Of a stretch of 64,000 bases of DNA, positions 15,270 to 19,835 are shown in pieces. How positions within the stretch are numbered: position 1 is the stretch's first letter; each line of letters begins with the position of its first letter. Under the pieces are notes generated by a model. The model was not told the DNA's origin. It did no database searches and was given only the letters and a program-made list of their open reading frames with translations. A program made the position numbers and the translations under genes. Origin of the DNA: Tildeniella nuda ZEHNDER 1965/U140 (lineage in GTDB: Bacteria; Cyanobacteriota; Cyanobacteriia; Leptolyngbyales; Leptolyngbyaceae); contig JAHHIG010000015.1 in assembly GCA_019358895.1 (NCBI GenBank), forward strand, positions 62,001-126,000, in the 5' to 3' direction.

Positions 15270-15986
15270 CTACAACCCACCAAACCACTCATAGCCAAAG
15301 TCCTCCCAGTAGCCTTTTGTGGGCATCAAGTTGCTCAAAAAGGTAATCTGAGTGACCCATTTGCTTTGTTTATAGCCCAGCTTGATGGGTGATGCCAGCC
15401 TCAAGGGTGCGCCATTGTCGGCTGATAACGGTTGTCCATTACGCTGATATGCCATCAGGGTTTGAGGATGCACGGCTGAGGCAAGATCCCAACTCTCGTA
15501 GTACCCATCTGCCGATTTGAAGTAGACGTAGCGAACATCGGCTTTGGGTTGTACCAGCGTGACCAAATCTCGTAAACGCACCCCATTCCATTGAACGATC
15601 GCCGCCCAACCTTCAACACAGACATGGCGAATGTTCATAGATGTGAGCGGCATTTTTTGTAGGTCTGGCAGGCTCAACTGCATGGGGTTACTGATTTCAC
15701 CGTCGATCGTCAGTCGAAACGCTGCCGGATCAATATTGGGCGTGAAGTCAAACGTGTTGATCAAAAGCTTTTCGGCTGGATCAATGGCATTTGCGGCAAA
15801 CTCTGGCACGGGTTTCTGCGACAGCATCAGTGCTTCAACCCGCTGATTCAAAGGCTCCGAGAATTGACCAACCTGTTCTGCAAACAACGACGATGCACAA
15901 CCATTCAGCAGCAGCCCTGCGCCAGACAGCCCAGACCATTGCAGCAGACGACGACGCGAAAGGGTGCGTTTGGGGAGAATCAGCAT
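15270..15986 (-). CDS. MsrP/YedY-like molybdopterin oxidoreductase
   Basis: This is a sulfite-oxidase-superfamily protein like the periplasmic methionine-sulfoxide reductase MsrP (YedY). The N-terminus has a twin-arginine signal (SRRRLLQWSG) that ends in a lipobox-like LLLNGC, so it may be a Tat-exported lipoprotein (C30). The predicted molybdenum ligand is C123 in IRHVCVEGW. Downstream blocks GVRLRDLV, SWDLASAV and GAPLRLASPIKLGYKQSKWV are typical. The 238-residue length is shorter than E. coli MsrP. It lies 121 bp downstream of the cytochrome gene, separated by repeat DNA. The family includes members acting on other S- or N-oxides, so the substrate is inferred from the neighbours. Confidence 0.85.
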   Translation of the reverse strand: MLILPKRTLSRRRLLQWSGLSGAGLLLNGCASSLFAEQVGQFSEPLNQRVEALMLSQKPVPEFAANAIDPAEKLLINTFDFTPNIDPAAFRLTIDGEISNPMQLSLPDLQKMPLTSMNIRHVCVEGWAAIVQWNGVRLRDLVTLVQPKADVRYVYFKSADGYYESWDLASAVHPQTLMAYQRNGQPLSADNGAPLRLASPIKLGYKQSKWVTQITFLSNLMPTKGYWEDFGYEWFGGL

Positions 15987-16107
15987 GGGGAAGGGAGTGG
16001 GGAGTGGGGAGTAGGGAGTGGGGAGTGGGAGAGTTCTTTTCGCTTCCTTTTTGTCTGACCGCTGACCGCTGACGGCTGACCGCTGACGGCTGACGGCTGA
16101 CTGCTAA
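15987..16107. repeat. Two heptamer repeat tracts
   Basis: A GGGGAGT-unit tract (about 15988-16032) is followed by a (TGACCGC/TGACGGC) tract (about 16057-16105). The second resembles the right half of the composite hairpin element. Both sit between the cytochrome and molybdoenzyme genes of the same cluster. Confidence 0.75.
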
Positions 16108-16710
16108 CTACACGAACATTGATTTCACTAAGCGCACCGTACCGACTCTAAGCACAAGGAGCGAATGTACGAAGGTGAAGAGAAGCACAGTGGGAACGGT
16201 GATGAAGTGAATGGTGCGAAGCGTTTGCCAGTTGCCAAAAAGCGCGGCTAGCCAGTGCAATTGGACGGGTTTGTACATGGCAAGACCGCTGGCGATCGCC
16301 AACAGCAAAATCGGAATAATGGCGGTATACACCAGCCGATGCCACGCATAGGTTTTACGCTTTTCATTCTGGCTGACCTGCACGGCTTTCAGATCATTGC
16401 TACTAGCGAAGCGATGCTGCCAGCGACGAGTGATGAAGACATACAGCCCGTAGCCGAGCAAATTTAATGCGTAGAGCCACATGATGGCGAAATGCCAGTC
16501 TCGCCCTTCTGCCAAACCACCGCCGATGACGAGAACGCTGGGAAAATGCCAGCCCGCCCGCCCGCCAAACACGGGATTGGCGTTGTAAATTCGCAGTCCG
16601 CTGGTGATCATCAGCAGGAGTGTGATGATATTGATCCAGTGAAACGCTTTGGCAGCGATCGCTTGACTGGGCGTTTTGGGCTTACGTTTAGCGGGAACAG
16701 AGGCAGTCAT
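16108..16710 (-). CDS. Cytochrome b561-like membrane protein, partner of the MsrP-like enzyme
   Basis: The 200-residue protein has four predicted membrane helices (about 20-42, 74-95, 129-147 and 168-186). Histidines that could bind heme lie in or near them: AFHWINII, WHFAIMWLY, AWHRLVYTA, and IHFITVPTVLLFTFVHSLL. This fits the cytochrome b/b6-domain family that delivers quinol electrons to periplasmic oxidoreductases. MsrQ is the usual MsrP partner but belongs to a different six-helix family. The stop is 121 bp before the MsrP-like gene, and the start is 18 bp after msrA. Confidence 0.8.
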   Translation of the reverse strand: MTASVPAKRKPKTPSQAIAAKAFHWINIITLLLMITSGLRIYNANPVFGGRAGWHFPSVLVIGGGLAEGRDWHFAIMWLYALNLLGYGLYVFITRRWQHRFASSNDLKAVQVSQNEKRKTYAWHRLVYTAIIPILLLAIASGLAMYKPVQLHWLAALFGNWQTLRTIHFITVPTVLLFTFVHSLLVLRVGTVRLVKSMFV

Positions 16711-16728
16711 AGGGCAACCAATGAGGAC

Positions 16729-17457
16729 TTAATTTTTGTAAAGGGTAGCGAACTGTCCTTTAAGCTGCTTGAGCTTTGGCAGGTCGTGGATGACGACGTA
16801 AGGATAGTTCGGGTTGTTCGCAATGAAATTCTGGTGTTCCGCTTCAGCCGGATAGAAATCGTTCAACGGTGTGAGTTGAGTCACGATCGGCTGATTGAAC
16901 GTGTGTGCTGCATTCAACTGGTCGATATACGCTTGTGCAACCTGCTTCTGCGCATTGTTAGCAAAAAAGATGGCTGAGCGATACTGTGTCCCTGAGTCGG
17001 GACCTTGCCGATTTAACTGTGTGGGATCGTGCGCGACTGCAAAATAGATTTTGAGCAGTTGACCATAGGAAATCTGCGCCGGATCGTAAGTGACTTTCAC
17101 AGCTTCTGCATGACCCGTTTGCCCAAAGCTGACTAATCCGTAATGAGCAGTCTCTGCACTGCCGCCCGAAAAACCAGACACGACATCAGAGACCCCTTTG
17201 AGATGCTCAAAAACCGCTTCTACGCCCCAATAACAGCCTCCAGCAAAAACTGCTGTCTGCATTCCTTTAGCTTGCCCAGTTGAGATGTCAGTAGCCGGAT
17301 CAGGGAAAACTTTACTCACTACAGCCGATGAAGTATTGGCAGCAGACTGAGAAAGCTTGAGGTAGAAGCCCACGCCTACAAGCGATAGCGCGACCAACGA
17401 AAGAATCGACAGCTTACGTAGGGAGCGGAGAACAGGATTGAAACTAGACCTTGACAT
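16729..17457 (-). CDS. msrA: Membrane-anchored peptide methionine (S)-S-oxide reductase
   Basis: MsrA reduces the S epimer of methionine sulfoxide. The catalytic motif is GGCYWGVEAVFEHLKGV with C75, followed by QTGHAEAVKVTYDP and GTQYRSAIFF. Residues 14-34 are a hydrophobic signal-anchor, so the enzyme should face the periplasm or lumen, unlike usual cytoplasmic MsrA. C75 is the only cysteine in the protein, so there is no resolving cysteine. An external thiol must regenerate it, and the thioredoxin-like gene two positions upstream is the obvious candidate. It is spaced 45 bp from the ccdA-like gene and 18 bp from the cytochrome gene. Confidence 0.93.
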   Translation of the reverse strand: MSRSSFNPVLRSLRKLSILSLVALSLVGVGFYLKLSQSAANTSSAVVSKVFPDPATDISTGQAKGMQTAVFAGGCYWGVEAVFEHLKGVSDVVSGFSGGSAETAHYGLVSFGQTGHAEAVKVTYDPAQISYGQLLKIYFAVAHDPTQLNRQGPDSGTQYRSAIFFANNAQKQVAQAYIDQLNAAHTFNQPIVTQLTPLNDFYPAEAEHQNFIANNPNYPYVVIHDLPKLKQLKGQFATLYKN

Positions 17458-18829: not shown

Positions 18830-18960
18830 TGCTACAACCTCAAAACGGGTATAAGAAAGTGGTGAGTTGCGATGCCAGTGGCGATCGGCGCAAACATTGA
18901 GCCACTTGGAGGGTACAGATTGCTTGAACACTCAACCTGTACCCTGATTCAAACGATCGA

Positions 18961-19272
18961 CTATGGCTTTGTAGTCGTGTCTTTCTTCATGGCATCGCCT
19001 TTCATCGCGTCACCCTTCGCTGCATCCTTTTTCATGGCATCACCCTTCATGGCATCACCCTTCATGGCATCGCCTTTCATGGCATCGCCTTTCATCGCAT
19101 CGCCTTTCATGGCATCGCCTTTCATGGCATCACCCTTCATGGCACCTTCAGGGCTGGTGCTGGCAGCCGGGGCACTGCTAGGTGCTGTCTGGGTAGCGCT
19201 TGGGGTGCTGGAGCAAGCAGCCAGACCAGCCATTGCTAGACCAGCCATGAGGCACAACATTTTTGCTTTCAT
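18961..19272 (-). CDS. Methionine-rich MXKDX pentapeptide-repeat lipoprotein
   Basis: The product is about 103 residues. It has a signal peptide with lipobox LAAC (C20), a Ser/Thr/Pro/Ala linker, and then eleven pentads, nearly all MKGDA (variants MKKDA, AKGDA, MKKDT). Ten of the eleven carry methionine. The repeats are also nearly exact at DNA level, with a 15-bp period. I chose the ATG at 19272 because an AAGG lies 12 bp upstream; ATG 19284 is an alternative. The composition matches the MXKDX family that includes the hypochlorite-scavenging peptide MrpX of Azospira. It heads a same-strand cluster of sulfoxide-repair genes, which supports a role as a sacrificial methionine pool. Confidence 0.85.
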   Translation of the reverse strand: MKAKMLCLMAGLAMAGLAACSSTPSATQTAPSSAPAASTSPEGAMKGDAMKGDAMKGDAMKGDAMKGDAMKGDAMKGDAMKKDAAKGDAMKGDAMKKDTTTKP

Positions 19273-19457
19273 GATGATTGACATCCTTGGAGTGATTGAG
19301 GTGGACAAACGATCGTCTGAGTTAATCGGGCAACAAAACAGGTTACGAGCACGATCGCACATTAAATCTTCACCGAGAAGCTAATTCTTAATAGAGAAGA
19401 TAGAAGCCAGCATCAGGTTTCTATAGTGCTTGTGTGATGCCACCTTAGGCTTGTGAT

Positions 19458-19835
19458 TTATTTCACTTCGGCTGGTGGAAATTGAGCGACGCGTCCTTTC
19501 TTCACCGCAACAACCACGTCATAGTGAGCGCAGTACGAGAAAGTAACATCGTTGGTTTTGTTGTAGAGGTTGACGACATGACCGCCGCCGCCCACTTGAA
19601 TGCCGATCGGGTCTAACTCACCGTAGAAAAAGCGACGCAGTTGATCACCACCGCCAATCTGACCTTTATTTTTGGTGATTAAATCAATTTTTTCTTGAGT
19701 CGTTGGTCCCGACTGCTTCGCCTCAGCGGCAGTAGCAACCCCAGCAGATGACGTATTGATTGCCTTAAGGGATACATCTCCAACCGTGACCAAGCCAATC
19801 ATGGCGATACCTGTGAGCAAAGAAGCTAATTTCAT
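19458..19835 (-). CDS. Small exported protein of unknown function
   Basis: The 125-residue protein has an N-terminal signal peptide (MKLASLLTGIAMIGLVTVGD) and probable cleavage near ATAAEA. The mature domain has a Gly-rich GIQVGGGGHVVNLYNKTND motif and one cysteine (FSYCAHYD). An AGGAGT six bases before the ATG supports the start. It lies upstream of the MXKDX lipoprotein on the same strand, with about 185 bp between, so it may belong to the same stress cluster. I do not recognise the family. Confidence 0.65.
   Translation of the reverse strand: MKLASLLTGIAMIGLVTVGDVSLKAINTSSAGVATAAEAKQSGPTTQEKIDLITKNKGQIGGGDQLRRFFYGELDPIGIQVGGGGHVVNLYNKTNDVTFSYCAHYDVVVAVKKGRVAQFPPAEVK

Follow-up and report, generated by a model that had tools for sequence, protein, structure and literature searches.

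A methionine-rich lipoprotein gene clustered with cytochrome b, MsrP-like and thioredoxin-CcdA genes in Tildeniella nuda and other cyanobacteria: a candidate rechargeable methionine-oxidation buffer

A seven-gene operon around a methionine-rich lipoprotein

A stretch of 64,000 nucleotides from Tildeniella nuda ZEHNDER 1965/U140 (contig JAHHIG010000015.1, positions 62,001 to 126,000; hereafter the window) carries, on its minus strand at 15270-19835, a cluster of genes around a methionine (Met)-rich lipoprotein. Calling and translation of open reading frames (ORFs) returned seven same-strand genes in the very order that an earlier sequence-only reading had given. Such a Met-rich gene co-occurs with genes for thioredoxin (Trx), CcdA, a cytochrome b and an MsrP-like enzyme in many cyanobacterial families. 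Gene content, conservation, co-occurrence, active-site residues and export-type N-termini constitute the observed basis on which we consider it probable that these loci encode a self-contained and rechargeable extracytoplasmic buffer against methionine oxidation.

In such a buffer, oxidants (hypochlorous acid, peroxides, photo-oxidants) would react with the excess methionines that an anchored lipoprotein of low complexity offers, thus sparing essential envelope proteins, and the resulting methionine sulfoxides would be reduced back by the MsrP-like molybdoenzyme with electrons drawn from the quinone pool via a b561-type cytochrome. A CcdA-thioredoxin pair, present in many lineages, would add a thiol supply, which in the genus of the window and in some others could feed an exported MsrA with a single cysteine and, probably, an exported MsrB as well. 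We infer from the sequences the role of the Met-rich protein as substrate, the electron routes and the identity of the oxidants; the predicted location is the periplasm, the lumen being possible.

Co-occurrence of the methionine-rich gene with its partners

The MXKDX model was searched over the class and matched 51/388 genomes at E 1e-3 and 22/388 above its cut-off, with no match in 14 control genomes. In all 22 genomes the above-cut-off gene adjoins homologues of trx/ccdA or of the cytochrome and molybdoenzyme genes, which is the co-occurrence in relatives by which the sequence-only reading had proposed beforehand to stand or fall. When weak matches were included, a Trx, CcdA, cytochrome or molybdoenzyme homologue was found in 33 of the 40 loci fetched from this search. 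The seven partnerless loci comprise two at contig edges (L048, L069), one with msrA only (L067), one with only a 28% molybdoenzyme match (L057) and three with none (L064, L068, L070).

The molybdoenzyme occurs in 151/388 genomes at E 1e-20, and the locus statistics refer to the 60 best molybdoenzyme loci of that search, 58 of which have the cytochrome and 38 both trx and ccdA. A protein was called Met-rich if the part following a hydrophobic stretch had no fewer than 4 Met and a Met content of 6% or more, a procedure that misses some. An exported Met-rich protein was called within -6/+4 kb in 31/38 loci with trx and ccdA versus 2/22 without (Fisher 4.7e-8, which overstates the association because the loci are related and not independent). 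When only loci whose upstream sequence exceeded 3.5 kb were counted, the figures were 30/34 and 1/17. Adding the genes recognized by eye to the full set would give 34/38 and 4/22 (L072 and L076 without Trx; L075, L099 and L113 with Trx, the L113 gene being cut by the contig end). Of the 31 genes, those of L095 and L114 are downstream and that of L098 is on the opposite strand. The outer flanks of 172 neighbourhoods, about 644 kb, held one called Met-rich ORF outside the span, and this one is the Met-rich gene of the operon itself, measured from a second molybdoenzyme match.

These data bear on the alternative that Trx and CcdA act in the maturation of cytochrome c, or in thiol repair at large, and stand at these loci by chance. 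In cyanobacteria CcdA has a further role in the assembly of c-type cytochromes, and 29 of the 38 Trx-CcdA loci have no msrA nearby; however, Trx-CcdA and the Met-rich gene track each other across the 60 loci, many Nostoc loci lack both, and a chance arrangement appears most improbable to us.

In many of the loci L134-L160, mostly from Nostoc, the molybdoenzyme is 79-82% identical, the cytochrome match is short or absent, and Trx, CcdA and a called Met-rich gene are missing; close relatives have the full operon. Plasmid pA of Kovacikia minuta (1.2 Mb) also carries the operon, msrA included. A metagenome-assembled genome (MAG) labelled Tatlockia (Legionellaceae; L196) carries the cyanobacterial version, nested among cyanobacteria in the tree, and its label is probably a binning error.

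The methionine-rich lipoprotein and its repeats

The proposed methionine sink (18961..19272, minus strand; 103 aa) has a LAAC lipobox, and 10 of its 11 pentads contain Met, so that the MXKDX lipoprotein with Met at every fifth residue announced by the sequence-only reading was recovered. It scored 50.7 bits with the MXKDX model TIGR02953, above the NCBIfam cut-off of 41, and is the single match to that model in the whole source genome (6.08 Mb, 96% complete). Signal peptides were assessed by eye throughout this work, and a signal and lipobox are discernible in this protein. Comparison of 275 pentad codon pairs returned 95 synonymous and 28 non-synonymous differences, an excess indicating that the amino-acid pattern is held and not the DNA alone.

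In 63 distinct repeat regions from its relatives, Met accounts for 12-24% and Lys for 0-28% of residues, while net charge runs from -35 to +11 per 100 residues; the units include DAMKGD, DAMKSP, DAMESP, DAMSSP and AMEEG. As judged from these regions, methionine is the constant feature of the repeats, Lys and charge being variable; the narrow Met range is partly due to selection since the caller requires Met, which leaves the variation in Lys and charge unaffected.

The carrier of the repeats varies as well. In f14 genomes (6/6 examined) the Met-rich protein has a signal peptide and, by eye, no lipobox; in the same six the cytochrome and molybdoenzyme genes are present in the stretch and Trx-CcdA is absent there. 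Met repeats occupy the same place on other scaffolds, namely a gene 1 homologue in L075 and DM13-type proteins in L050 and L051; DM13 was identified in L050, and L043, which clusters with it, gave no NCBIfam match.

At locus L067 (6588-8678), a Met-rich protein with AMSGDAMSGS repeats and a signal-like N-terminus, without lipobox, is encoded close to msrA in a stretch without cytochrome or molybdoenzyme genes. Its genome (G077) also has a Trx-CcdA-cytochrome-molybdoenzyme operon (L125).

The molybdoenzyme and its cytochrome partner

The molybdoenzyme (15270..15986, minus strand; PF00174, 121.6 bits) is predicted to be exported by twin-arginine translocation (Tat) and probably lipidated. Its family retains the twin Arg in 168/168 rows, the lipobox Cys C30 in 161/168 and the molybdenum (Mo)-ligand Cys C123 in 169/169. 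N77, C123 and E125 align with N45, C102 and E104 of mature E. coli MsrP, a numbering based on a leader that we take to be 44 residues long; N45 is presumably an active-site residue of that enzyme, a literature search for residue numbers having given no confirmation. The CVEGW motif and N77 are invariant in 63 aligned rows, and the nearest solved relative by sequence is E. coli MsrP. Since the NCBIfam MsrP equivalog scored 97.9 bits, under its cut-off of 207, the MsrP/YedY-like identity proposed from sequence is borne by the residues N77, C123 and CVEGW; "MsrP-like" is a fair name, but membership is not given by that model.

Sulfite oxidases and dehydrogenases have an active-site Arg (chicken R138, SorA R55, SorT R78), at whose position the molybdoenzyme has Asn. 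In a weak segment without gaps (9.8 bits), N77 is paired with residue 44 of construct 2a99 of chicken sulfite oxidase, a residue that corresponds to Arg138 if the construct starts at 95. Counting from range starts in the fold alignment, which assumes no gap between, places N77 at chicken 138, SorA 55 and SorT 78, the Arg positions named in the mutant titles of those structure entries. As far as these alignments indicate, the active-site residues are of MsrP type and not of sulfite-oxidase type. A sulfite oxidase identity was dropped on residues, not on fold, and a PruR-like pterin binder, present in the fold list, was rejected because the Mo-ligand Cys is retained in every row.

The source genome encodes a second cytochrome-molybdoenzyme pair (G000:C9:549500-564500; L103, L216), 62-63% identical, with a Tat-like signal, no lipobox and no Met-rich neighbour called.

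The proposed quinol-fed partner is a b561-type four-helix cytochrome b (16108..16710, minus strand; PF01292, 53.9 bits), whose family conserves H24 in 138/138 rows and H73, H124, H168 and H182 in 141/141. E. coli MsrQ belongs instead to PF01794, the sole match to which in the source genome is a 447-aa frame on another contig. The MrpX-like operon of the sequence-only reading therefore stands for the MXKDX protein, above its cut-off, and not for the partner, which is of the PF01292 b561 type and not MsrQ/YedZ; the YedZ partner of Azospira we take to be of MsrQ type. Homology to MsrQ was discarded, hhalign giving no signal (probability 0.15%). The best Foldseek rows for the cytochrome were hydrogenase-1 cytochrome b and formate dehydrogenase-N, both weak (E 0.1-0.25); a profile search against solved structures gave no match at E 0.1, nor did comparison with E. 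coli YodB. Of 59 genomes drawn from the phylum, 9 within the class and 2 outside it had a match to the cytochrome, the latter at 37-38% identity.

The thiol branch

CcdA, an exported Trx and an exported Msr are co-encoded at 16729-18829 of the window, and motifs and Pfam matches agree with the identities read from the sequence. The thioredoxin/ResA-like protein (18209..18829, minus strand; PF00578/PF08534/PF13905) has the CINC motif and a Tat-like RR in its N-terminus, and both Cys are retained in 86/86 rows of its family. In the CcdA-type thiol electron transporter (17503..18195, minus strand; PF02683, 43 bits) the family retains C23 in 88/88 rows and C134 in 88/89. The MsrA (16729..17457, minus strand; PF01625, 196.5 bits), predicted to be exported or membrane-anchored, has one Cys, in GGCYWG, and 16/18 of its relatives have a single Cys in the aligned part. 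It is 34% identical to the other MsrA of the genome, which by eye has no signal peptide, and an MsrB with a signal-like N-terminus is encoded on another contig. Gene content and conserved Cys suggest that electrons would flow from CcdA to Trx to Msr, and Trx-CcdA could plausibly feed exported MsrA and MsrB.

The sequence-only reading had proposed that both repair chemistries meet at one locus. This holds for the genus of the window and scattered others but not for the system overall, because msrA occurs in only 10 of the 60 loci, once on the opposite strand. MsrB lies near the operon in 6/56 loci (one member model-confirmed, the rest assigned by sequence clustering) of a neighbour survey that spanned -9/+6 kb around the Met-rich gene, some stretches being shorter; these 56 loci were mostly picked for Trx/CcdA, so that fractions are not population rates. 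A search for MsrA of at least 60% identity was carried out in 57 genomes. Such an MsrA is present elsewhere in 14/35 trx-ccdA genomes without operon msrA, in 7/7 searched genomes of f14 and f33, in 1/11 genomes whose fetched locus is a cytochrome-molybdoenzyme pair only (G032, about 6 kb away) and in none of 4 further genomes with undefined locus type.

Contrary observations and alternative explanations

Several observations weigh against a methionine buffer. On strict tree contrasts, 10 pairs gave on average 6.0 concordant and 0.6 opposed (median p 0.07), the link between Trx/CcdA and the Met-rich gene being not significant and only suggestive on this measure. The lipoprotein of L129 (5629-6030) is a repeat scaffold with Thr in DATK units and no Met in the repeats; that of L054 (2316-2660) keeps the scaffold with few Met, and both are cytochrome-molybdoenzyme loci without Trx-CcdA. 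In 21 of the 35 trx-ccdA genomes mentioned above, a few of them incomplete, no MsrA of at least 60% identity was found elsewhere. MM doublets occur in Met-rich proteins outside the 63 regions (L066, L076, L178, L184 and the DM13 proteins L050 and L051), no RskA-type anti-sigma gene is on the contig of the window, and the fold does not separate MsrP (Z 18.7) from the sulfite dehydrogenases (SorA Z 21.2).

MM doublets are possible in copper-binding proteins, and Met-rich proteins can bind Cu(I). The locus could then be a copper or soft-metal operon whose lipoprotein would bind Cu(I), with Trx-CcdA holding thiols in the reduced state and the molybdoenzyme mending Met damaged by copper. Besides the doublets, a distant cytochrome-molybdoenzyme pair of Paraburkholderia near cueR and a metal P-type ATPase, and a regulator pair annotated "heavy metal" near that of Rhizobium, point this way. 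However, MM, MxM or MxxM spacing is found in 0/63 repeat regions and any His in 3/63, no metal pump is among the identified recurrent neighbour families (not every recurrent cluster being annotated), and a "heavy metal"-type regulator pair need not mean metal, as E. coli HprSR adjoins hiuH-msrPQ. We judge a metal operon unlikely.

Regulatory genes raise another explanation, that of a sensor instead of a sink: the lipoprotein would report its oxidation state to an extracytoplasmic function (ECF) sigma/anti-sigma pair and be reset by the reductases. Genes for ECF sigma factors were found close to the Met-rich gene in 15/56 loci and those for RskA-type anti-sigma factors in 14/56; the loci belong to six family codes (eight from f23) and the named relative L210, and the two families were model-confirmed on six and five members, the others being assigned by sequence clustering. 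Within the surveyed span of -9/+6 kb (some stretches being shorter), no pair was found in 41/56 loci, the window operon included, and the two RskA-type genes of the source genome are both on another contig. Moreover, Met is kept in repeats that vary in number and sequence, as would be expected of bulk scavenging more than of a specific contact. A sensor role thus has little probability in our view.

A last alternative is that the enzyme is a quinone-linked sulfite dehydrogenase and the Met-rich gene a passenger. By fold alone the molybdoenzyme is at least as near to the sulfite dehydrogenases as to MsrP, and SorA was the top VIA-align row. The Asn at the sulfite-Arg position, the MsrP-like CVEGW motif and the co-occurrence with Met-rich genes and, in a subset, with MsrA and MsrB genes argue the other way and make this explanation very unlikely.

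The methionine buffer, in which the interpretation offered by the sequence-only reading is partly supported, would provide many cyanobacteria with a self-contained defence against extracytoplasmic methionine oxidation. The locus unites two repair routes known separately, the quinone-fed MsrP and the thiol-fed MsrA/B, and is a clean genetic system for asking whether bulk methionine is a rechargeable antioxidant. A more far-reaching proposal, which we put forward tentatively and with some doubt, is that of an ancient light-rechargeable envelope antioxidant, a disordered Met polymer oxidised in bulk and re-reduced by two wires, one of plastoquinol, b561 and the MsrP-like enzyme, the other of cytoplasmic thiols, CcdA, thioredoxin and MsrA/MsrB. 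Protein side chains would then be the store of an antioxidant coupled to photosynthetic electron flow.

Relation to known systems

The core of the cluster (a cytochrome b, an MsrP-like enzyme and a Met-rich peptide) has known counterparts in the plasmid trios of E. coli and Rahnella and in C3566-C3568. In uropathogenic E. coli, the accessible text of the report describes C3566-C3567-C3568 as a trio on a chromosomal island under the two-component system OrhK/OrhR and lists together a cytochrome B gene, an MsrP-like protein and a small Met-rich peptide (PMC8550376). Deletion of C3566 or C3567 reduced growth with tert-butyl hydroperoxide, and its authors liken C3566 to MsrQ at 23.1% identity; unlike the window, Trx, CcdA, MsrA and a lipoprotein form find no mention in that portion of the report (PMC8550376). 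On plasmids of Rahnella and E. coli the order is cytochrome, molybdoenzyme and Met-rich peptide, and the window cluster and these trios alike combine a PF01292 cytochrome, a PF00174 enzyme and an exported Met-rich protein. Judged by gene order and description, C3566-C3568 is probably akin to these plasmid trios. The b561/MsrP-like/Met-rich trio of L232 (3202-4860), beside insertion sequence (IS) elements on E. coli plasmids, occurs nearly identical in 73/5426 genomes (72 over 80% of the query), always on plasmids, and its Met-rich gene is annotated merely as hypothetical. Among the matches listed (30 of 506 records) or compared, molybdoenzyme relatives from plasmid records outside cyanobacteria are about 39-44% identical, and no clear Met-rich neighbour was seen for the Paraburkholderia and Rhizobium cytochrome-molybdoenzyme pairs examined.

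The Azospira YedYZ-MrpX system with SigF/NrsF shares with the present loci a Met-rich peptide, an MsrP-type enzyme (here MsrP-like) and, at some loci, a sigma/anti-sigma pair, which in Azospira and Brucella controls the Met-rich gene; its partner is YedZ instead of the b561 type, and a thiol branch is unmentioned for it in the accessible parts of the sources (PMC5748585, PMC8315932). Brucella BcrXQP with BcrS/AbcS, induced by hypochlorous acid (HOCl), likewise combines an MXKDX peptide, an MsrP homologue, a membrane partner and an ECF sigma/anti-sigma pair, but, as far as the available text goes, the partner is an MsrQ homologue and AbcS, for which six membrane helices are predicted, seems different from the RskA-type anti-sigma found here (PMC8315932). 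The thiol branch resembles the pneumococcal Etrx-SpMsrAB2 pathways, where a surface Trx-fold protein reduces an exported Msr and electron pathways CcdA-Etrx-SpMsrAB2 are named; there the reductase is SpMsrAB2 and not MsrA alone, and the part of the article at hand mentions neither a molybdoenzyme nor a Met-rich protein (PMC3914529). For Limnospira, an MsrP-like gene was noted and MsrQ not found, according to the accessible text (PMC8400943). The b561 cytochrome, present in 58 of the 60 best molybdoenzyme loci, is a candidate partner for such an enzyme, perhaps also in Limnospira.

No description of the cyanobacterial system was met in the literature searched (MXKDX, cyanobacterial MsrP, Met-rich lipoproteins, MsrP/MsrQ/b561 and YedY/b561, with subscription papers mostly outside the search). 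As far as this literature goes, what is new is the spread in cyanobacteria, the occurrence as a lipoprotein and the branch of CcdA and thioredoxin, to which MsrA/MsrB are sometimes added.

Gene 1, operon layout and neighbouring sequence

The first gene of the operon (gene 1; 19458..19835, minus strand) encodes a small, putatively exported accessory protein with a signal-like N-terminus and no Pfam or NCBIfam family. Its homologues lie close to the operon in 9/56 loci, the window counted, and that of L075 carries four DSMSKP Met repeats. Gaps along trx, ccdA, msrA and the cytochrome gene are 13, 45 and 18 nt, the remaining ones 121-185 nt. Gene order is shared with Stenomitos frigidus ULC18, Stenomitos rutilans HA7619-LM2 and a Lyngbya MAG, whose molybdoenzymes are 89-91% identical. 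A promoter scan returned 2 sites against 4.6 expected and a terminator scan 7 against 5.5.

A recurrent neighbour cluster at 26 loci (for example L055, 1380 aa) consists of large multi-domain proteins on either strand and may only reflect shared signalling domains. On the plus strand of the window, a 170-aa ORF (18872-19384) is the antisense reading of the pentads, with FMASP repeats, and is probably not a gene. The gap between the cytochrome and molybdoenzyme genes consists mostly of two heptanucleotide tandem arrays (15993-16034 and 16055-16105; GGGAGTG and CTGACCG), and a third array, of ACTCCCC, lies at 21818-21873.

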